Origin: an uncultured Acidimicrobiaceae bacterium
GTDB taxonomy: Bacteria > Actinomycetota > Acidimicrobiia > Acidimicrobiales > Microtrichaceae
Length of the DNA stretch: 36,751 nt
NCBI GenBank assembly: GCA_937868025.1
Contig: CALMLJ010000656.1
Location: 1-36,751 of the forward strand
Direction of reading: 5' to 3'
Within the stretch, counting starts at the first letter, position 1; every line of letters begins with the position of its first letter. Positions 7,556 through 21,255 of this stretch are shown piece after piece. Position numbers and translations under genes: made by a program. The notes under the pieces are model-generated. The model worked only from the letters and a program-made list of their open reading frames with translations. It made no database searches and had not been told where the DNA came from.

Positions 7556-8539
7556 TCAGTCAGGTGCGAGGACGAGGCGCGAGAACCGCTGACTGTTGCC
7601 GTCCAGTGGCCCAGCGATCACGGTGCGCGTCGCGGTGGGCGAGTCCTCGACGGCGACGATCTCGGTCCGGTCGAGTGTGCCCGGTACCAGCATCTCGACC
7701 AGCACGCGGGCGCCGCCGATCTCGCCCGCCGTCTCGGGGTAGCCGGTGTAGGAGTCGAACAGTCCGAGCGAGCGTTCGCCGAGTCCGTCGACGCCGACGG
7801 TGCGCAGCTCGAACGCCGGGCGCAGCAGGCCTCGGTACACCGAGTAGACGATGCGGCCGGCGTCGGTGAGCCGGTAGGCGTATTTGGCCTCGCCCGTGAC
7901 CGGTACTGCGATGGCGAGCGGGTCGCTGCCGGTGGTCGTCGCGGTGAAGAGGGCGTAGTCCTCCGACATGCTCCACAGGTTGTACCCGCGGACGATGAGT
8001 CGTGACCCGTCCCGGCTGAAGTCCTGGATCGTCGGAAGGCCGGTGCCGAGGGGCCACGCGAACGAACGGCGGAGCGTCAGGTCGATCGCGTTGTAGATGT
8101 CGACGTAGGCGCCCGTGTTGTCCCACCTCGTGATGCCGAAGGTGGAGCCGTCGGCGGAGAAGCGGTACCCCGACGTCTGGGGGCCGAAGTCGATACGGAG
8201 GACCCCGTTGCCGTCGTAGATCCCGGTGGACACCGTCCCGTCGGGGTGGTCGACGCGACCCAGGCGATCGGCGTTCGCCGGGTTTCCCAGACCGGTGGCG
8301 TCGAAGTAGAGGTCGAGGGCCGTGACCGGGTCGGCGGGGAAGTCCGACGTGCCGCCCGGGTTCGAGAGGATCGTGCCGACCCCGGCAGGTGAGGTCGTGA
8401 CGAAGATTCGGTTGCCGGGCGACAGCAGCTCGGCACGGTACGGGGACGGTGCCGGCGGATCGGTCGGGCAGGCGGTGGCGACGAGCGCGAGGGTTGCCGT
8501 CGCCAGCGTGAGTGGGATCGAGCGGAACCTACGAGACAT
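7556..8539 (-). CDS. Predicted lipoprotein with beta-propeller-like repeats, function unknown
   Basis: I do not recognise a specific family. The N-terminus is a lipoprotein signal peptide: basic MSRRFR, a hydrophobic stretch, and a lipobox ending LVATAC, so the mature protein should be anchored at the cell surface. The body has repeating strand-rich units with phrases such as FSADGSTFGITRWD and FSRDGSRLIVRG, typical of TolB/WD40-like propellers. ATG at 8539 is preferred because a GGAG lies 10 nt upstream; a GTG at 8548 and an ATG at 8545 in the same frame would add two or three residues. It runs convergent to plsC and divergent from thrS. The 96 bases between it and plsC contain a CCCGGCCGGG palindrome but no convincing terminator. 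Confidence 0.8.
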   Translation of the reverse strand: MSRRFRSIPLTLATATLALVATACPTDPPAPSPYRAELLSPGNRIFVTTSPAGVGTILSNPGGTSDFPADPVTALDLYFDATGLGNPANADRLGRVDHPDGTVSTGIYDGNGVLRIDFGPQTSGYRFSADGSTFGITRWDNTGAYVDIYNAIDLTLRRSFAWPLGTGLPTIQDFSRDGSRLIVRGYNLWSMSEDYALFTATTTGSDPLAIAVPVTGEAKYAYRLTDAGRIVYSVYRGLLRPAFELRTVGVDGLGERSLGLFDSYTGYPETAGEIGGARVLVEMLVPGTLDRTEIVAVEDSPTATRTVIAGPLDGNSQRFSRLVLAPD

Positions 8540-8649
8540 GGTCATCACACTCCGGGCCGGTGGCTACGTGAGAGGAGGGTACATAACAGTGTGTCACCAA
8601 CTCGTCTCGGGGGTTGGGCAAACTGCACGGGGGCTCGAAGGGGCGCCGG

Positions 8650-8655
8650 TAGCAT
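8650..8655 (+). promoter_or_regulatory. Candidate -10 box for thrS
   Basis: TAGCAT ends 7 nt before the ATG at 8663. This favours the second of two in-frame ATGs, because the first (8654) lies inside the box. No clear -35 at 17-18 nt is seen. Confidence 0.4.
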
Positions 8656-8662
8656 GCTCGCC

Positions 8663-10624
<1,962 letters not shown>

Positions 10625-12672: not shown

Positions 12673-13671
12673 GTGGCCCCGCTCGACCCCATCGGCGCCG
12701 CTCGCGCCGCAGCCCGCAAGGCCCTCGCGCCGGCGCTGGAGCGCGCCGCCGGTCCAGCGATCGTGGGCGCCTACAAACTCGGCGAAGCGCTTGCCCAACG
12801 CGCCCCGCGCCAGATCGGCGACCCCGTGCTCGCCGCCGCCGGCCACGCCGCAGCGCTGCGCGGCGGCGACAAGCGCCTCATCGTCGAGCGGAACCTACGC
12901 CGTGTCTACGGGCGCGACCTGACCCGCAACGAGATCAACACCAAGGTGCAGGCGACCTTCGAGAGCTACGCCCGCTACTACTACGACTCGTTCCGTCTGA
13001 CCGGAATGTCGGTCGACGAGGTGGCCGCCGGGTTCACCGTCGAGGGCATCGAGCACATCGAGGAGGCGATGGAGCACGACGCCGTCGGCCCCGTGCTCGC
13101 GCTGCCACACCTCGGTGGCTGGGAATGGGCAGCGTTCTGGATCACCCAGGTTCGGAACTGGGGCCTGGCCGCGGTGGTCGAGCAGCTCGAGCCACCCGAA
13201 CTGTTCGAGTGGTTCCTCGAGTTCCGCACGTCGCTCGGCATGAACATCATCCCGCTCAGTCCCACCGCCGCCGACGAGGTGGCGATGGCAGCGGCCAACA
13301 AGGAGATCGTGTGCCTGCTGTGCGACCGCGACCTCACCCGCGCCGGACCCGAGATCACCTTCTTCGGTGAGACGACCTCGCTGCCGGCGGGCCCCGCCGT
13401 GATGGCGTTGCGCGGCGGCTGCCGGGTGCTGCCCACCGCCGTGTACTTTACCGAACGTGGAGTGCACGGTGTCGTGCGCCCTCCGATCGAGATCGAGCGG
13501 ACGCCCGGAGCGACCTCGATCCGTGAGGACGTCGTCCGCTTCACCCAGGTGCTCGCCACCGAGCTCGAAGGCCTCATCGCCCGGGCACCCGAGCAATGGC
13601 ACCTCCTGCAACCGAACTGGCCGAGCGACTACGAGGCGCTCGGCACCACGCCGCCGCCCCGTCGCGGCTGA
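12673..13671 (+). CDS. patA: Phosphatidylinositol mannoside acyltransferase (LpxL/HtrB family)
   Basis: PatA acylates the mannose of phosphatidylinositol mannosides at the cytoplasmic membrane face. The 332 residues match the LpxL/HtrB-like acyltransferase fold. The catalytic HX4E pair is H146 and E151 in PHLGGWEWA. Later family blocks are seen as NKEIVCLLCDRDLTRAGPEITFFGE and PAVMALRGGCRVLPTAVYF. The GTG start lies 3 nt after the pgsA stop, and pimA follows after 14 nt, so the three are one operon. The order pgsA-patA-pimA is the strongest evidence for the exact role. Confidence 0.9.
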   Translation: MAPLDPIGAARAAARKALAPALERAAGPAIVGAYKLGEALAQRAPRQIGDPVLAAAGHAAALRGGDKRLIVERNLRRVYGRDLTRNEINTKVQATFESYARYYYDSFRLTGMSVDEVAAGFTVEGIEHIEEAMEHDAVGPVLALPHLGGWEWAAFWITQVRNWGLAAVVEQLEPPELFEWFLEFRTSLGMNIIPLSPTAADEVAMAAANKEIVCLLCDRDLTRAGPEITFFGETTSLPAGPAVMALRGGCRVLPTAVYFTERGVHGVVRPPIEIERTPGATSIREDVVRFTQVLATELEGLIARAPEQWHLLQPNWPSDYEALGTTPPPRRG

Positions 13672-13685
13672 GCAGGGTCGACGTC

Positions 13686-14813
13686 GTGCACATCGGGATG
13701 GTCTGTCCGTACAGCCTCACCGTGCCCGGTGGTGTGCAGGGCCAGGTGCTGGGTCTGGCCCGGGCGCTGCGCGAGCGTGGGCACAACGTCCAGATCCTGG
13801 CGCCGGCGGACGCTCCGCCCACCGAGGGCGGCGTCACGGTCATCGGGCCATCGGTGATGAACGCCGCCAACGGTTCCATCGCCCCGATCTCGCCGAACCC
13901 TCAGGCACAATTGCGCACCATGCGGGCGCTGTGGGACGAGAAGTTCGACGTCCTCCATCTCCACGAACCGCTCGTGCCCGGCCCGACCGTGACGGCACTC
14001 ATGCTCCGCTCGGCCCCGATCGTCGGGACGTTCCACGCCGCCGGCGAGCAGCCGATGTACAAGTCGATGTCGAGCCTCGCCCGCTGGTTCGGGTCGAGGA
14101 TCGACGCCAAGGTCGCCGTCTCCCAGGACGCGCAGGCCCTGGCAGGCGTCGCGATTCCCGAGCCGTGGACGATCCTGTTCAACGGAGTCGAGGTCGACCA
14201 GTTCGCGTCGGCCGAGCCGTGGGTCGACCCGCCCGGCCCCGACGGCGCGGTCGACGACCGCCCGACGGTCTTGTTCGTCGGGCGCCACGAGGAGCGCAAG
14301 GGCCTGGGGGTCCTGCTCGACGCCGTGGGCCTCATCGACCAGGACCTGCGGGTGTGGGTCGCCGGATCGGGCCCCGAGACCGAGGAGTTGCAAGCGCGCC
14401 ATGCTGCCGACCATCGCATCGAGTGGCTCGGCCGCATCAGCAACGACGAGCGGAACCGACGGATGGCCGCAGCCAGCGTGTTCGTGGCACCGTCGCTCGG
14501 TGGCGAGTCGTTCGGGGTGATCCTCCTCGAGGCAATGGCGGCCGGCGCACCGGTGGTGGCCTCGTCGATCAGCGGCTACGTGGGCGTCGCCGGTCCGCTC
14601 GACGGCGAGCCGGCCGCAGCGCTCCTGCCCGAACCGGGGGATCCGGCCGCGTTCGCCATGGCCATCTCCGAGGTGCTCGGCGACGACGCGCTGGCCGACC
14701 GCCTGCGTGCGAGCGGTCGCGACCGCGCGAATCGGTTCTCGATGGATCGCTTGGCCGAGGCGTACACCGTCCTCTACGAGGCCGTCATCGCCGAGGCCGC
14801 GCTCAACGCCTGA
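13686..14813 (+). CDS. pimA: Phosphatidylinositol alpha-mannosyltransferase (PimA-like, GT4)
   Basis: PimA adds the first mannose from GDP-mannose to phosphatidylinositol, using a GT-B fold glycosyltransferase bound at the membrane. The 375-residue protein starts VHIGMVCPYSLTVPGGVQGQV, very close to the usual PimA N-terminus, which supports the GTG at 13686; a GAGCAGGG lies just upstream. The C-terminal half carries the GT4 EX7E motif at E274 and E282 in GGESFGVILLEAMAAGAPVVAS. It closes the pgsA-patA-pimA operon and meets the HNH gene tail-to-tail with a 13-nt gap. Confidence 0.93.
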   Translation: MHIGMVCPYSLTVPGGVQGQVLGLARALRERGHNVQILAPADAPPTEGGVTVIGPSVMNAANGSIAPISPNPQAQLRTMRALWDEKFDVLHLHEPLVPGPTVTALMLRSAPIVGTFHAAGEQPMYKSMSSLARWFGSRIDAKVAVSQDAQALAGVAIPEPWTILFNGVEVDQFASAEPWVDPPGPDGAVDDRPTVLFVGRHEERKGLGVLLDAVGLIDQDLRVWVAGSGPETEELQARHAADHRIEWLGRISNDERNRRMAAASVFVAPSLGGESFGVILLEAMAAGAPVVASSISGYVGVAGPLDGEPAAALLPEPGDPAAFAMAISEVLGDDALADRLRASGRDRANRFSMDRLAEAYTVLYEAVIAEAALNA

Positions 14814-14826
14814 GGGAACTGCGACC

Positions 14827-15921
14827 TCATCTGCCACCGCCGGCGGTGGAATGACGCGCTCTGTGGCACCGGGAGCACCGGAGGTCGGTCTCCTCGACGA
14901 GTGTGTGCTTCGTGACGGCGAAGTCGGGTACGTGGTCGTACTCGAGGAAGTCCGTCCCTCCGCAGTCGACGCACACGTCGTCGCGTTCCTTCACCACGAG
15001 CTTCTGCCGTTTCGTGTGGTGCCGGTGCGTTCCCGAGACGTTGATCGGACGTGACTCGGCGTCGTGGATCATGACCCGCAGCGAGGCCTCCGAGGCGATT
15101 CTCTCCACGATCGAGCCTCCGATCGGCGTGCCGTCGTGGAGCGTGCATCCGTCGGCTCGTACGTGGAGGATGACCTCGGTCGTGACCTCTGACCCCCCGC
15201 CTCCGATGAGACGTACCAACGAGTCGACCCGTTGCTGGCCCAGGCTCGACCACCGAACGTGAGATGGACGCGTCCCGGACGCGTCGATCTCACCGTCGGT
15301 GGCGTTCTTGTCGGTGTTCGGGTCGGTCTCGCGTCCGTCTCCCCGCATGACCTCGGCGTCGATCGCTGCGATGACGAGCGCGGCCTGTTCCGGGGTCATC
15401 CGGATCGATGCGGTCACCATGCCGTCGGGCTCGGTTCGCCACGTGAGGGACCGGTCGCGCTGATGGCGTTGGTTCCGTGTGGCCTCGTCCTCGTTGCGAG
15501 CCGACCAGGCTGCCAAGGCCGTGCCGAGTTGGCCCGGTGCCGTTCGCTCGGCGATGTCCAGGAGTTCGCCCTCGTGCTCGGCCGTCGCGAGCCGCGTGAC
15601 GGAGCGAACCTTGGTGTAGGACAGCCGTCCATCCCGGAGGGCCGACCGCGTCTTGGGGAGCCGGCGGAGTTCCCGTCCGACGCGGAGCCACTCGCGGGCG
15701 GTGCTCACCTCGATGTCGAGCACGCTCGCGATCCAGTGCGCGCAGGTGGGGGAGCCGTCGAGCGCCCATTCGCCGGACTGGTCGAGTTCGGCTGACAGCT
15801 CGACGAGGCGGGTGATGGACACCAACCACTGCCGGCCGATGCGTGCCAGTTCTGTCCTCACGTTGGTCTGCGTCGCAGGACGCTCGGCTTCGATCACGCG
15901 GGGTCCGTCGTTCCGGAGCAT
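14827..15921 (-). CDS. HNH endonuclease, DUF222 / 13E12-repeat type
   Basis: This 364-residue protein has an N-terminal DUF222 helical region (about 20-200, with WALDGSPTCAHWIASVLDIEVSTAREWLRVGREL) typical of the 13E12 family. A C-terminal HNH zinc-nuclease module follows. Likely metal ligands are C317, C320, C349 and C352, with the catalytic-type histidine H330 in YDHVP. These proteins are abundant, variable and scattered in actinobacteria, and some occur in mobile elements; their biological role is poorly defined. ATG 15921 follows a GAGAGG. The gene is antiparallel to its neighbours and interrupts conserved gene order. Codons for about residues 210-221, in the linker between the two domains, coincide with a long palindromic repeat. 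Confidence 0.88.
   Translation of the reverse strand: MLRNDGPRVIEAERPATQTNVRTELARIGRQWLVSITRLVELSAELDQSGEWALDGSPTCAHWIASVLDIEVSTAREWLRVGRELRRLPKTRSALRDGRLSYTKVRSVTRLATAEHEGELLDIAERTAPGQLGTALAAWSARNEDEATRNQRHQRDRSLTWRTEPDGMVTASIRMTPEQAALVIAAIDAEVMRGDGRETDPNTDKNATDGEIDASGTRPSHVRWSSLGQQRVDSLVRLIGGGGSEVTTEVILHVRADGCTLHDGTPIGGSIVERIASEASLRVMIHDAESRPINVSGTHRHHTKRQKLVVKERDDVCVDCGGTDFLEYDHVPDFAVTKHTLVEETDLRCSRCHRARHSTAGGGR
14834..14849. terminator. Palindrome at the pimA/HNH convergence
   Basis: A perfect 16-nt palindrome, CCACCGCCGGCGGTGG, spans the last codons of the HNH gene and lies just past the pimA stop. It could fold as a short hairpin with a CCGG loop and serve both strands. It is weak and lacks a U-tract. 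Confidence 0.3.
15259..15293. repeat. Palindromic repeat, copy A (inside the HNH gene)
   Basis: Arms GTGAGATGGACGCGTCC (15259-15275) and GGACGCGTCGATCTCAC (15277-15293) flank a single central C. They are complementary at 16 of 17 positions. GTCGGTGGCG follows at 15295-15304. The repeat is in frame within the HNH coding sequence. A related copy lies at 16054-16083. Confidence 0.7.
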
Positions 15922-16251: not shown

Positions 16252-16812
16252 ATGATCTGGGTCCTGGTGATCCTCATAGCGCTGGTCGTGATCGTCGGGT
16301 TGGCGTTCATGTTCACGTACAACGGCCTCGTCGGGCTCCGCAACAAGATCGAGGCGGCGTACGCCCAGATCGACGTGCAGCTCAACCGTCGGCACGACCT
16401 CATTCCGAACCTGGTCGCCACGGTCAAGGGCTATGCGGCGCACGAGAGCGGCACGCTCGAGGCCGTGATCCAGGCCCGCAACATGGCCATGTCGGCCAAC
16501 TCGATCGAGGACAAGGCGGCAGCGGAGAACGTCATCACCGGTGCGCTCAAGTCGGTCTTCGCCCTGTCGGAGGCCTACCCCGACCTCAAGGCCAACACGA
16601 ACTTCCAGCAGTTGCAGACCGAACTCAGCTCGACGGAGGACCGTATCGCCTACGCCCGGCAGTACTACAACGACAACGTCCGGGCCTACAACACCAAGAT
16701 CCAGTCGTTCCCGAGCGTGGTCGTGGCCAACATGTTCAAGTTCGAGGAACGTCAGTACTTCCAAGCCGATGACCAGTCGCGGGGCAACGTCGCGGTCGAT
16801 TTCGGCGCATGA
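16252..16812 (+). CDS. lemA: LemA family membrane-anchored protein
   Basis: The 186-residue protein has one N-terminal membrane helix (WVLVILIALVVIVGLAFMFTYNGLV) followed by the long helical LemA domain. Hallmarks are GLRNKIEAAYAQIDVQLNRRHDLIPNLVATVKGYA and the C-terminal FPSVVVANMFKFEERQYFQ. The start ATG follows GAGGAGAGC. The biochemical role of LemA is not settled; in many bacteria its gene sits beside the membrane protease HtpX or TPM-domain proteins. Here too an HtpX-like gene follows after 25 nt, so the two are probably one operon and may work together in membrane protein quality control. Confidence 0.93.
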   Translation: MIWVLVILIALVVIVGLAFMFTYNGLVGLRNKIEAAYAQIDVQLNRRHDLIPNLVATVKGYAAHESGTLEAVIQARNMAMSANSIEDKAAAENVITGALKSVFALSEAYPDLKANTNFQQLQTELSSTEDRIAYARQYYNDNVRAYNTKIQSFPSVVVANMFKFEERQYFQADDQSRGNVAVDFGA

Positions 16813-16837
16813 GTTCCGCGAGGGGGACGGTCCTGTC

Positions 16838-17698
16838 ATGAGTATCGAAGCGCGCACGCTCCTCGACCGCACCGACCGCAATCGCGAGGCCACCAAGTTC
16901 CTCGTCGTGCCGCAGGTGCTCGCGACAGCGATCGTGGTGGGCGTCATCGTCGGTCTGGTGGCGACCTGGTGGATCGGTCTCGTCGCCGGGGTGCTGTCCG
17001 GTGTGATCGTCGCCGTCATCCTCCCCAAGTCGGCGCCGGCGGGGCTCGCGACCGTGTTCGCGGCCCGCCCCGCTCCCGAGCCGGAGTTCCCCCGCTACCA
17101 CAACCTCATGGAAGGGTTGTCGATCAGCTCGGGGTCGGTCATGCCGACGCTGCAGGTGATCGACGAGGCCCGCCCGAACCTCGCGGTCTACGGGCCGCCC
17201 GACGAGGGTGTGGTCATTGCCACGACCGGTCTGCTGGAGCAGCTCGACCGCGTCGAACTCGAGGGTGTGCTCGCCGAGGCGCTGGTGCGCCTCCGGAGCC
17301 ACGATGCCGAGCTGGGTGCGCAGGCAGCGATGCTGGTGTGCGGTCCACTGGTGCGCAACGGCCCGCGGCGTCCCGGTCGCCCGATGGGCTACGTCGCGTT
17401 CCTCGCCGGGTGGCGCGCCGGCCGGCTGCGACGGGTGCTCGGCGACCAGCGCGAGTTCCTGTCGGACCTGGGCGCGATCGACATGACCCGGTACCCTCCG
17501 GGCCTCGGTTCCGCGCTCGAGAAGATGGAGGCGCTCGGCACCGGCGTGGAGTCGGCGACGTGGGGCACGGCCCACCTGTGGCTCGCCGACCCGCTGGTCG
17601 AGGCGGCTGACACCGACACAACGGCGTACCAACTCTCTGCCCTGTTCGGGGGAGGGGCGCCGATCGACCAGCGCGCGTCGCTCATGGCGGAGCTGTAG
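16838..17698 (+). CDS. HtpX/M48 metalloprotease-like protein lacking the HEXXH motif
   Basis: This 286-residue protein has two N-terminal membrane helices (about 21-62) and an M48-like domain. NLMEGLSISSGSVMPTLQVID, the segment VVIATTGLLEQLDRVELEGVLA and REFLSDLGAIDMTRYPPGL (205-223) align well by eye with HtpX. Where HtpX has HELSH after GVLA, this protein has EALVR (residues 147-151, bases 17276-17290), so both zinc-binding histidines and the catalytic glutamate are gone. E206, equivalent to the third zinc ligand, remains. The frame is intact, so this looks like a maintained pseudo-protease rather than a decaying gene. It follows lemA with an AGGGGGACGG ribosome binding site. A regulatory or scaffold role with LemA is inference. 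Confidence 0.78.
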   Translation: MSIEARTLLDRTDRNREATKFLVVPQVLATAIVVGVIVGLVATWWIGLVAGVLSGVIVAVILPKSAPAGLATVFAARPAPEPEFPRYHNLMEGLSISSGSVMPTLQVIDEARPNLAVYGPPDEGVVIATTGLLEQLDRVELEGVLAEALVRLRSHDAELGAQAAMLVCGPLVRNGPRRPGRPMGYVAFLAGWRAGRLRRVLGDQREFLSDLGAIDMTRYPPGLGSALEKMEALGTGVESATWGTAHLWLADPLVEAADTDTTAYQLSALFGGGAPIDQRASLMAEL

Positions 17699-17730: not shown

Positions 17731-18825
17731 ATGTCTCGATCTCCTCGCAACCTCACGCTTCGATCGACCGCCTGCTGCGCCGTGGCTCTGCTCATGGCGA
17801 CGAGCTGTGGCGGCGACGACAAGAAGGCCGATCCTCCGGCCACGACGACCACGTCGACGTCGACCACGACCACCGAGGCGACTACGACCACGACCGCCGT
17901 GCCGGTAGTGGCGGCAACGGCGCCGTTGACCGGCCTGCCGATCGACGACGCCACTGCGGTCAAGCTCCTTCGTCCGGCGCTGGCGGTGAAGATCGACAAC
18001 TCGGTCGACGCGATGCCCCAGGAGGGCCTCAACCAGGCCGACATCGTCTTCGAGATCAAGGTGGAGGGCATCAGCCGGCTGATGGCGGTGTTCCACAGCC
18101 AGGACGCCGGTGAGATCGGCCCGACACGCTCGGCGCGCTACAGCGACCCGCCCATCCTGGCGCTCCTCGGCAAGCCGCTCTTCGGCTGGTCGGGGGCGAA
18201 CGAGGGTGTCGTGCGTGACGTGTACCGCAGCGAGTGGGTCGTCAACGTCAACTGGGACAAGCACCCCAAGGACTATTTCCGCAAGAAGGGCCGCAAGGCA
18301 CCGCACAACCTGTTCACGTCGACCGACAAGCTGTTCGCATACGCCGAACCCAACCAGGGTCCGCCGCTCAAGGTGTTCCAGTACCTCGGAGAGGGTGAGA
18401 CCAACGCCGGTGCGATCCCGATGCCGGGCGTGACCGAGAAGGTCGGCGACACGCCGTCGGCGTGGGTGTGGGACCCCGCCGGCAATCAGTGGCTCCGGTG
18501 GCAGTACAACAAGCGCGACCAGACCGAGGGCACCGGGCAGGCGAACGCGACGAACGTCGTGATCATGGAGATCCAGTACCGGGGCGGTTCCAAGACGCCG
18601 ACGGCGAAGACCGAGGGCACCGGCAAGGTGACGGTCCTCGGTGCGGGCGGCACCGCGGTCACCGGCACGTGGAACCGTCCGTCCCAGCTCGAGCCGATCA
18701 CGCTCACGGGCGCCGACGGCCAGCCGATCCGGCTGACCCCGGGGCGAACCTGGGTCGAGTTCACCGACGGTGCCACGGCGGCGCCGATGTCGCCCGAGGT
18801 CGCGGCCTCGATGCTGGCCGGCTGA
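17731..18825 (+). CDS. DUF3048 domain lipoprotein (YerB-like)
   Basis: This is a predicted surface lipoprotein of 364 residues. The signal peptide ends in a lipobox LLMATSC with C26 as the acylation site. A Thr-rich linker (about 34-60) leads to the DUF3048 domain, which begins LTGLPIDDATAVKLLRPALAVKIDNS. It contains GLNQADIVFEIKVEGISRLMAVFHS and GEIGPTRSARYSD. The function of DUF3048 proteins is not established; Bacillus YerB is a relative. It lies downstream of the lemA pair but has its own putative -10 box. Confidence 0.88.
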   Translation: MSRSPRNLTLRSTACCAVALLMATSCGGDDKKADPPATTTTSTSTTTTEATTTTTAVPVVAATAPLTGLPIDDATAVKLLRPALAVKIDNSVDAMPQEGLNQADIVFEIKVEGISRLMAVFHSQDAGEIGPTRSARYSDPPILALLGKPLFGWSGANEGVVRDVYRSEWVVNVNWDKHPKDYFRKKGRKAPHNLFTSTDKLFAYAEPNQGPPLKVFQYLGEGETNAGAIPMPGVTEKVGDTPSAWVWDPAGNQWLRWQYNKRDQTEGTGQANATNVVIMEIQYRGGSKTPTAKTEGTGKVTVLGAGGTAVTGTWNRPSQLEPITLTGADGQPIRLTPGRTWVEFTDGATAAPMSPEVAASMLAG

Positions 18826-18919: not shown

Positions 18920-19828
18920 ATGACTGATTCAGCCTCCCCGGTCGCTCCTTCGTCGCTTCGCGGCACCGTCCAGGTCAAGCGCGGCCTCGCCGAGATGCTG
19001 AAGGGTGGCGTCATCATGGACGTCGTCGACGCCGCACAGGCGCGGGTCGCCGAGGACGCCGGTGCGTGCGCCGTCATGGCCCTCGAGCGGGTGCCCTCCG
19101 ACATCCGCCGCGACGGCGGCGTCGCCCGCATGAGCGATCCGCAGATGATCGAGGAGATCAAGGCGGCGGTGACCATTCCGGTCATGGCCAAGGCCCGCAT
19201 CGGTCACTTCGCCGAGGCGCAGATCCTGCAGGCGCTCGGGGTCGACTACGTCGACGAGTCCGAGGTGCTGACCCCCGCGGATGAGACCCATCACATCGAC
19301 AAGTGGGCGTTCGACGTGCCGTTCGTGTGCGGTGCCACCAACCTGGGTGAGGCGCTCCGTCGCATCTCCGAGGGTGCGTGCATGATCCGCTCCAAGGGCG
19401 AAGCCGGCACGGGCAACATCGTCGAGGCGGTTCGTCACCTCCGCCAGATCCTCGGTGACATCCGCAAGATCACGCAGGCCGATCCCGCCGAGCTGTTCGA
19501 ATGGGCCAAGCAGTTGCAGGCCCCGCTCGGCCTCGTGCAGGAGATCCATGACACCGGGGTCCTGCCGGTCCCCATGTTCTGCGCCGGCGGCATTGCGACC
19601 CCGGCGGACGCCGCGCTCGTGATGCAGCTCGGCGCCCAGGCCGTGTTCGTCGGCTCGGGCATCTTCAAGAGCGAGCACCCCGACATCATGGCGAAGGCCG
19701 TGGTCGAGGCGACCACCAACTTCGACGACGCCGACATCTTGGTGAAGGTCAGCCGCGGGCTCGGCAAGTCGATGGCCGGCCTCGAGATCGGCGGCCTCGA
19801 GACGACGTTCGCCGATCGGGGCTGGTGA
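18920..19828 (+). CDS. pdxS: Pyridoxal 5'-phosphate synthase subunit PdxS
   Basis: PdxS condenses ribose 5-phosphate, glyceraldehyde 3-phosphate and ammonia to pyridoxal phosphate. It forms a dodecamer fed with ammonia by PdxT. The 302 residues are nearly textbook. [35 protein letters not shown] leads the barrel. [15 protein letters not shown] carries the Schiff-base lysine. [19 protein letters not shown] holds the second catalytic lysine and the Gly-rich phosphate loop. The ATG at 18920 lies 6 nt after a -10-like box. pdxT follows after 57 nt. Confidence 0.97.
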
Positions 19829-19885
19829 GAGACCGTCGGCGAGTTCGCCGGAGGTACCGGAGCGTTAGTAGGGAGCGAAGCGACC

Positions 19886-20491
19886 GTGCCTAGCGAAGGT
19901 GGCCTCCGGCCATCGTTGATGATCGGGGTGCTGGCACTCCAGGGCGCCTTCGCTGCTCATCAACGCATGCTGGAAGGCCTCGGGGCCAGCACGATCGCGG
20001 TCCGGCAACCGAAGCACCTCGACGGTGTCGACGCGCTCGTGATCCCCGGTGGCGAGTCGACCACGATGTCGAAGCTGGCCGTCTCCACGGGTCTGTTCCA
20101 GCCGATCTCCGAGCGGCTCGCCGCCGGCATGCCAGCGTTCGGCACGTGCGCCGGAGCCATCATGCTGGCGAGCCACATCGCGGACGGGCGCGCCGACCAA
20201 CGCGACTTCGAGACACTCGACATCGACGTGCGGCGCAACGGGTACGGCCGCCAGATCGATTCGTTCGAAACCGAGATCGACGTCGACGGCCTGGATGCGC
20301 CGTTCCATGCGACGTTCATCCGGGCGCCGATCATCGAGCGCACGGGTGACGGTGTGCAGGTGTTGGCCGCTGTCGGCGACAATGCGGTGTTCGTACGCGC
20401 GGGGGCCGTCATGGCCACTACGTTCCATCCAGAGCTCGGTGCCGATGATCGCCTGCACCGTCTGTTCCTCGACGCGATCACCAGTTCGTAG
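19886..20491 (+). CDS. pdxT: Pyridoxal 5'-phosphate synthase glutaminase subunit PdxT
   Basis: PdxT hydrolyses glutamine and passes ammonia to PdxS. The class I glutaminase features are GGESTTMSKL (oxyanion loop), the nucleophile in FGTCAGAIML, and the His-Glu pair in TTFHPELGADDRLH. GTG 19886 has a GGGAG 10 nt upstream and gives 201 residues. ATG 19919 would give MIGVLALQGAF directly, the usual PdxT N-terminus (190 residues), but lacks a ribosome binding site. I cannot decide between them. Confidence 0.94.
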   Translation: MPSEGGLRPSLMIGVLALQGAFAAHQRMLEGLGASTIAVRQPKHLDGVDALVIPGGESTTMSKLAVSTGLFQPISERLAAGMPAFGTCAGAIMLASHIADGRADQRDFETLDIDVRRNGYGRQIDSFETEIDVDGLDAPFHATFIRAPIIERTGDGVQVLAAVGDNAVFVRAGAVMATTFHPELGADDRLHRLFLDAITSS

Positions 20492-20505
20492 AAGGAGACT
20501 CTTCC

Positions 20506-21255
20506 ATGTCGGGTCACTCCAAATGGGCAACGATCAAGCACAAGAAGGGCGCGACCGACAAGGCGCGCGGCAAGCAGTTCGCGAAGCTGATCAAGCAGGT
20601 CGAGGTTGCCGCTCGTGCCGGCGGGGGTGATCGGGAATCCAACCCGACGCTCCGCACGATGTTCCAGAAGGCGCGGGCCGCCTCGGTGCCGCTCGACACG
20701 ATCGAACGTGCCGTCAAGCGTGGCACCGGCGAGCTCGAGGGTGTCGAGTACCAGGAGGTCAACTACGAGGGCTACGCGCCCGGTGGTGTCGCCGTGTACG
20801 TCGAGGTGCTGACCGACAACCGCAACCGCACCGGCCCCGAGATGCGCTCGGTGTTCTCCAAGAACGGCGGCTCGATCGCCGAGCCGGGCGCGGTGGCGTG
20901 GCAGTTCGAGCGCAAGGGCATCGTCACGGTCGACGGCGCTGTCGACGAGGACGAACTGATGGAGGCGGCGCTCGAGGCGGGCGCCGAGGACATCTCCCGC
21001 GACGCCGAGAACAACTGGCATGTTGTGGCCGACGGTTCGGCCACCCACGAGGTGTCGTCTGCGCTCGAGGCCGCCGGATACGCGGTCATGTCGGCGGAGC
21101 TGACGATGATCCCGTCGTCGCTCATCACCATCGACAGCCTCGAGACCGCCAAGGCCATCCTCAAGGTCATCGAGGCGCTCGACGACCACGACGATGTCCA
21201 GGAGGTCTACGCCAACTTCGACATCCCCGACGCCCTGATGGCCGAGCTTGACTAG
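20506..21255 (+). CDS. yebC: YebC/TACO1 family protein
   Basis: The 249-residue protein starts MSGHSKWATIKHKKGATDKARGKQFAKLIKQVE, the family hallmark, followed by NPTLRTMFQKARAASVPLDTIERAVKRGTG. YebC proteins have been described as transcription regulators, and more recently some as translation factors that relieve ribosome stalling. The sequence does not separate these roles. A clear GAAGGAG precedes the ATG, 15 nt after pdxT. The location upstream of ruvC is widely conserved among bacteria, though two other units intervene here. Confidence 0.94.
   Translation: MSGHSKWATIKHKKGATDKARGKQFAKLIKQVEVAARAGGGDRESNPTLRTMFQKARAASVPLDTIERAVKRGTGELEGVEYQEVNYEGYAPGGVAVYVEVLTDNRNRTGPEMRSVFSKNGGSIAEPGAVAWQFERKGIVTVDGAVDEDELMEAALEAGAEDISRDAENNWHVVADGSATHEVSSALEAAGYAVMSAELTMIPSSLITIDSLETAKAILKVIEALDDHDDVQEVYANFDIPDALMAELD

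Follow-up and report, generated by a model that had tools for sequence, protein, structure and literature searches.

The pseudo-htpX locus

The window analysed here is a stretch of 36,751 nucleotides from an uncultured Acidimicrobiaceae bacterium (contig CALMLJ010000656.1), in which a gene for a LemA family membrane protein is followed by a gene whose product derives from the HtpX/M48 metalloproteases and carries no HEXXH motif. We refer to the latter as pseudo-htpX. The two genes lie on the same strand, separated by 25 bases, and the reading frame of pseudo-htpX is intact. A preliminary description, made from the sequence alone, had given the coordinates, the intact frame, the close lemA and the residues EALVR at positions 147-151 correctly. 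The features of the two genes are as follows:

16252..16812 (+): lemA, LemA family membrane protein, 186 amino acids (Pfam PF04011, E 7.8e-62, 208 bits, cut-off 26.2).
16838..17698 (+): pseudo-htpX, HtpX/M48-derived protein without HEXXH, 286 amino acids (translation; NCBIfam HtpX matches below cut-off; homologues and motif table; AlphaFold2; M48 folds).
16907..17056 (+): N-terminal helical hairpin, predicted membrane anchor, residues 24-73 (AlphaFold2 helices 24-41 and 44-73; hydropathy).
17177..17191 (+): edge-strand region, residues 114-118, NLAVY (AlphaFold2 strand 115-118; sequence alignment to 3cqb and 3c37).
17276..17290 (+): former HEXXH, residues 147-151, EALVR (alignment with HEXXH homologues).
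17303..17440 (+): short linker, residues 156-201, where active copies from the same genomic slot have two hydrophobic membrane helices, the third and the fourth (linker length; hydropathy).
17453..17467 (+): former third-ligand motif, E206 and D210 present (alignment).

Loss of the HEXXH motif

EALVR aligns exactly with the HELSH of HEXXH homologues; both zinc histidines and the catalytic glutamate are gone in the window protein, as the preliminary description had proposed. Relatives were sought among 5.8 billion proteins, from which the 7994 candidates sharing most words were scored, yielding 354 relatives, the best 120 of which were examined. The full-length aligned set comprises 38 sequences, namely the window protein and 37 relatives with at least 40% identity (P0002, P0004-P0021, P0024-P0028 and P0030-P0043), and HEXXH is absent from all of them. 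Outside this set stand the fragments P0022, P0023 and P0029 as well as P0003, which shares 99% identity with the window protein, leads a 25-member cluster from several sources and also lacks HEXXH. While the window alone would allow the loss to be read as a local mutation or a sequencing error, P0003 and the 37 relatives without the motif refute this reading, which retains practically no probability. The comparison with orthologues that had been suggested beforehand gave a divided answer: the dead state is conserved (37/37 relatives without HEXXH), but EALVR itself is variable, the motif site of dead copies reading EALVR, AALVR, EELAR, NLLGR, ELLCR and others. Among the matches listed, HELSH or a close form is found from P0044 onward, with P0047 (HELSR) as the exception, and Microthrixaceae are the nearest named source.

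In a 161-row alignment, rows without a complete HEXXH were classified as dead (74 rows, against 87 with HEXXH), and residue frequencies were compared between the 74 dead and 52 active rows. Remnants of the motif are seen in the dead rows as H147 in nine, E148 in six and H151 in one, and arginine replaces the second histidine (position 151) in 58/74. The third ligand E206, described beforehand as kept, is indeed present in the window, but this does not extend to the dead family, where it is found in 17/74 rows versus 51/52 active ones. D210 is present in 74/74 dead and 52/52 active rows, and N114 in 72/74 and 51/52, respectively. E142 and R279 are invariant in the dead rows (74/74), and T129, Y219, P220, P221 and W248 are nearly so. 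Since R151 is frequent and D210 invariant, the alignment suggests that an ion pair between the two may stand in place of zinc. No newly conserved His, Cys, Ser or acidic position was found in the 74 dead rows, in which R151 and R153 are the polar positions that have newly become frequent. This argues against a protein that is still an enzyme through other residues or another metal, a reading which we regard as highly improbable even though the outline of the M48 core persists and the window protein has E206.

HtpX kinship and predicted fold

The kinship with HtpX/M48, originally judged by eye, is borne out by profile searches and by structure prediction. NCBIfam HtpX models match the window protein with E 3e-29 (PRK04897) and weaker, all under the model cut-offs, and they match 38/38 of the full-length aligned set. 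The Pfam Peptidase_M48 profile, whose use the preliminary description had advised, does not match the window protein and matched 6/38 of the same set. Together with the Foldseek matches given below, the NCBIfam matches put the M48 ancestry of the window protein beyond chance.

AlphaFold2 models reach a predicted local distance difference test (pLDDT) score of 95.5 for the window protein and of 91.9 for L050, from a distant dead clade. With the window model, Foldseek ranked ZMPSTE24 and HtpX first with probability 1.00, and gave no match with E <=0.001. VIA-align returned BepA (11.2), ZMPSTE24 (11.2), 3c37 (11.1), Ste24p (10.6) and BlaR1 (9.1), where rows differing by 1 or less are tied. The structure prediction proposed earlier as a check has been positive, the window protein being predicted to adopt an M48 fold anchored by two helices. 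As aligned with 3cqb and 3c37, the NLAVY strand region would correspond to the edge strand through which M48 proteases bind substrate.

Membrane helices

The linker between the HEXXH position and the third ligand has a median length of about 33 amino acids in dead versus about 70 in active slot copies, with a hydropathy of 0.93 versus 2.47. According to a rule based on linker and hydropathy, the last two membrane helices are missing in 66/74 dead rows and present in 73/87 HEXXH rows; 14/87 HEXXH rows also fail the rule, the second helix pair being usual in active slot copies and not universal. The window protein is without this pair, and AlphaFold2 places only short helices in residues 156-201. 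At the N-terminus hydropathy is about equal, with KD19 medians of 2.78 in dead and 2.90 in active rows. L019, L049 and P0047 are dead yet carry the last two membrane helices, and the linker is short in some HEXXH rows close to the dead clade (e.g., L066, L073, L075, L078 and L051). With exceptions in both directions, loss of the helices does not have to come after loss of the motif. The copies form a graded series, in which HELSR, QQLSQ and FELSQ occur with the last helices (by hydropathy), and EALVR and NLLGR without them.

A conserved genomic slot

The usual gene order is acyltransferase, PimA-like glycosyltransferase, lemA, htpX, DUF3048, pdxS, pdxT and yebC, and in the window the genes around lemA and pseudo-htpX are:

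12673-13671 (+): acyltransferase, conserved upstream context (Pfam PF03279; gene order across loci).
13596-14813 (+): glycosyltransferase, which we take to be PimA-like, conserved upstream context (Pfam PF13692/PF13439; gene order across loci).
17731..18825 (+): DUF3048 protein, next gene downstream after a 32-base gap (Pfam PF11258, 111.8 bits; PF17479, 65.2 bits).
18920..21255 (+): pdxS, pdxT and yebC, conserved downstream context (Pfam PF01680, PF01174 and PF01709; gene order across loci).

The PimA label is a presumptive one taken from this neighbourhood, Pfam giving glycosyltransferase families only. The N-terminus of the DUF3048 protein looks lipoprotein-like by eye. An opposite-strand DUF222 gene (14827-15921, -) separates the PimA-like gene from lemA in the window; among the loci compared for gene order, a relative of it was seen in that place in the G001 locus (L174) only.

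The genome family of G001 (L001, Microthrixaceae bacterium SSF14) comprises 33 genomes, in which 30 slot copies are readable, 29 of them dead and one active (G003). The three genomes without a readable slot are G008, where no pdxS was found, and G013 and G033, where a contig ends near pdxS. For a class census, 84 genomes were drawn evenly and about 7.5 kb upstream of pdxS were read where the contig allowed. An active htpX occupies the slot in 31 genomes and a dead one in ten (nine plus G001, whose row was classified from the separate reading of gene order); in 35 genomes nothing is detectable there, and eight slots are unreadable. The unreadable ones include L384, cut off before the motif, and L352 (G035), where pdxS lies away from the slot; the slot copy of G035, located elsewhere, is active (L199). 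Very degenerate slot genes with mere traces of the HtpX pattern lie between the PimA-like gene and pdxS in L345, L349 and L357, all counted as dead in the census, and also in L369; L345 gives no Pfam M48 match. In L326, L327 and L328 the PimA-like gene, DUF3048 and pdxS are present, and no lemA or htpX is detectable between them.

Across the 41 dead loci read, the PimA-like gene lies upstream in 38 (all except L057, L062 and L178) and pdxS downstream in 37 (all except L019, L049, L080 and L207), some of the exceptions being at contig ends. As these flanks are kept, the dead copies occupy the same slot as active lemA-htpX elsewhere in the class. The presence of the PimA-like gene in 38/41 dead loci, even in those without lemA and DUF3048, could be taken to mean that the client of the dead protein is the phosphatidylinositol-mannoside pathway, with the protein anchoring or regulating the PimA-like glycosyltransferase and the acyltransferase at the inner membrane face. 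However, the gene block is conserved with or without htpX (35/84 slots are empty), so position alone says little about such a client, and the PimA name comes from the neighbourhood where Pfam offers glycosyltransferase families. We consider this explanation improbable.

The preliminary description had also raised the pairing of LemA with a consistently dead HtpX, which the census does not bear out. LemA is found in the slot of 30/31 active versus 1/10 dead copies, the sole dead one being G001. In a larger, non-random set of loci, which excludes rows of other HtpX types, an adjacent LemA accompanies 40/50 active versus 8/40 dead copies, and a DUF3048 neighbour 33/48 versus 24/39. Detection of LemA relied on similarity to the window LemA in the larger set and on a profile in the census, so that a distant LemA could escape. 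By the census counts LemA accompanies live HtpX, and the clade of the window is an exception. In G007, G022 and G015 the dead copy has no adjacent lemA, and a lemA sits elsewhere in the genome; in G015 (L318, 3066-5450) it comes directly after frames of a DUF2207 membrane protein, and in G007 and G022 the upstream gene is similar by eye only. A different arrangement is present in L072 (uncultured Elusimicrobiales) and L077 (uncultured bacterium), where two or three tandem HtpX-like genes with HELAH motifs lie beside lemA.

A second HtpX in the same genomes

To count as a second copy, the top Pfam M48 hit lying outside the slot had to reach E 1e-25, and the count was repeated at 1e-18. At 1e-25, another M48 gene is found in 24/29 dead genomes of the G001 family and in 26/28 further dead genomes, i.e., 50/57, versus 19/32 genomes with an active slot copy (Fisher p 0.003, kinship and genome completeness ignored). 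At 1e-18 the figures are 52/57 dead versus 22/32 active (p 0.016, both again ignored). HEXXH is present in those second copies that were retrieved from dead genomes. The advice to look for a second, active HtpX has been fruitful in related genomes.

These counts speak for an alternative in which the dead protein would serve the second, active HtpX as a regulatory subunit or a decoy, and mixed complexes or competition for substrates would tune membrane proteolysis. A 2024 review describes the regulation of active cousins by inactive homologues as a known theme (PMC11266112). Nevertheless, the second HtpX of the G001 family belongs in the tree to a distant subfamily and lies at another locus, and 4/29 dead genomes of the family are without a detected second copy, possibly owing to incomplete assembly. 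Overall, we judge a regulator or decoy of this kind to be rather unlikely. A scaffold or decoy role, as first put forward in the preliminary description, would be plausible.

Phylogeny and selection

A 161-row tree (74 dead), built without the motif columns, requires at least six changes between the two states, four of which are imposed by branches with good support, and places the window within an all-dead group of 14 rows (support 98). A 66-row tree was inferred under a mixture model from representatives picked after the first tree, with several long-branch rows omitted; here four changes are needed, and 35 dead rows lie on one side of a branch with support 94. A single origin for all 38 dead rows of this set is rejected by the approximately unbiased (AU) test (p 0.009). 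L019, from Ilumatobacter nonamiensis YM16-303, is dead inside an active clade and represents a young, independent loss among active copies. Its slot copy (7713-8699) has QQLSQ for HEXXH, keeps E206 and, by hydropathy, the last two helices, and gives a Pfam M48 match. A single deep loss followed by several later ones is the most likely history.

The ratio of nonsynonymous to synonymous substitution rates (dN/dS) ranges from 0.08 to 0.28 in five dead pairs, with a median of 0.106, against a median of 0.050 in 24 HEXXH pairs of all kinds; forty other pairs, the window's own among them, yielded no value. Where measurable, i.e., in these five pairs, the dead gene is under purifying selection and is less constrained than HEXXH copies. 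It might be argued that the slot copy is a decaying remnant which, once the second HtpX took over, lost catalysis and the last two helices, and now drifts, surviving only because its loss is slow. The many motif variants, a dN/dS about twice that of HEXXH pairs, the empty slots and the very degenerate copies L345, L349 and L357 are consistent with decay. On the other hand, no internal stop was reported in any dead copy of the G001 family, dN/dS is well below 1, E142, D210 and R279 are kept at 74/74, the dead copy persists in 29/30 readable slots of one family, and both dead models (window and L050) fold with high confidence. Decay appears to us unlikely on this balance.

A putative client-holding pseudoprotease

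The interpretation that we put first, tentatively, is that pseudo-HtpX is a conserved relative of HtpX (M48) without HEXXH that acts as a membrane-anchored, client-binding pseudoprotease, holding its targets uncut. Its likelihood comes from the fact that the motif is lost, yet dozens of related bacteria keep the gene in place. What was observed directly in its favour is the loss of the motif, the dead state across a genome family, the intact frames, the low dN/dS where measurable, the single slot and the second M48 gene with HEXXH in most carriers. According to this model, the kept M48 core and the edge strand would still bind client polypeptides, by analogy with protease-repressed BepA, and the N-terminal hairpin would anchor a protein that is fixed in the holding mode. 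In the clade of the window, and in the small number of further dead lineages where LemA is retained, LemA would be a possible partner; the cutting would fall to the stand-alone second HtpX. The selected, non-catalytic pseudoprotease of the preliminary description is upheld in its conservation across many species, purifying selection where measurable and a predicted M48 fold, and loses the consistent pairing with LemA. A more ambitious version, which is possible though doubtful, holds that the HtpX pseudoprotease family of Acidimicrobiia is old, that it arose by one deep and several later losses with an Arg-Asp pair for the zinc site, and that it now permanently holds clients in the manner of BepA, with LemA kept as a partner in the clade of the window, so that LemA-HtpX complexes would serve a purpose for which no proteolysis is required.

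Pseudo-HtpX resembles HtpX, a membrane zinc metalloprotease of family M48B, in sequence, in its N-terminal hairpin, in the predicted M48 core fold, in its lemA neighbour and in occupying the slot of active Acidimicrobiia copies. Unlike HtpX, it has no HEXXH, the third ligand is mostly lost in the dead family, the last two helices are missing, and it scores below every HtpX cut-off. BepA, a periplasmic M48 protein, is described as retaining its zinc site and alternating between two modes. Its edge strand binds LptD both for cutting and for a chaperone-like help in which proteolysis is repressed (PMC8423444). Unlike in BepA, cutting would have been lost for good in pseudo-HtpX, whose client binding would follow by analogy.

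Membrane pseudoproteases provide further parallels. A function in membrane proteostasis is described for the rhomboid YqgP, an adaptor of FtsH, and for iRhoms and Derlins (PMC7231995), which offers a working parallel. Unlike pseudo-HtpX, YqgP is itself active. These rhomboid proteins also belong to another catalytic class and have another fold. In magnetosomes, the degenerate protease MamO and the LemA-family protein MamQ are reported to be both needed for one organelle (PMC3905215), and the NCBIfam MamQ model matches the window LemA below its cut-off. MamO differs from pseudo-HtpX in being trypsin/HtrA-like, not M48, and in being tied to magnetite formation. From what these sources describe, the nearest parallels would be MamQ-MamO for the combination of LemA with a degenerate protease and YqgP for the role of a bacterial pseudoprotease. 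Among the papers listed by our literature search, none reports an HtpX or M48 pseudoprotease, although its coverage of subscription journals was thin and an earlier mention is possible; in a word search, the main text of a 2024 review on pseudometallopeptidases mentions neither M48 nor HtpX (PMC11266112).

The function of M48 proteases is described as poorly understood (PMC7950410), and the role of LemA as unknown (PMC3905215). A natural separation-of-function experiment is offered by this lineage, in which fold, locus and, in part, the LemA neighbour persist without the zinc site: whatever the dead protein still contributes has to be a non-catalytic function of HtpX. In addition, the graded series of motifs and helices lets one ask how a membrane protease turns into a pseudoprotease. 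Ilumatobacter nonamiensis YM16-303 and Acidimicrobiia bacterium EGI L10123, both carriers, are recorded under strain names and not under the titles of metagenome-assembled genomes, so that work in culture may be possible.
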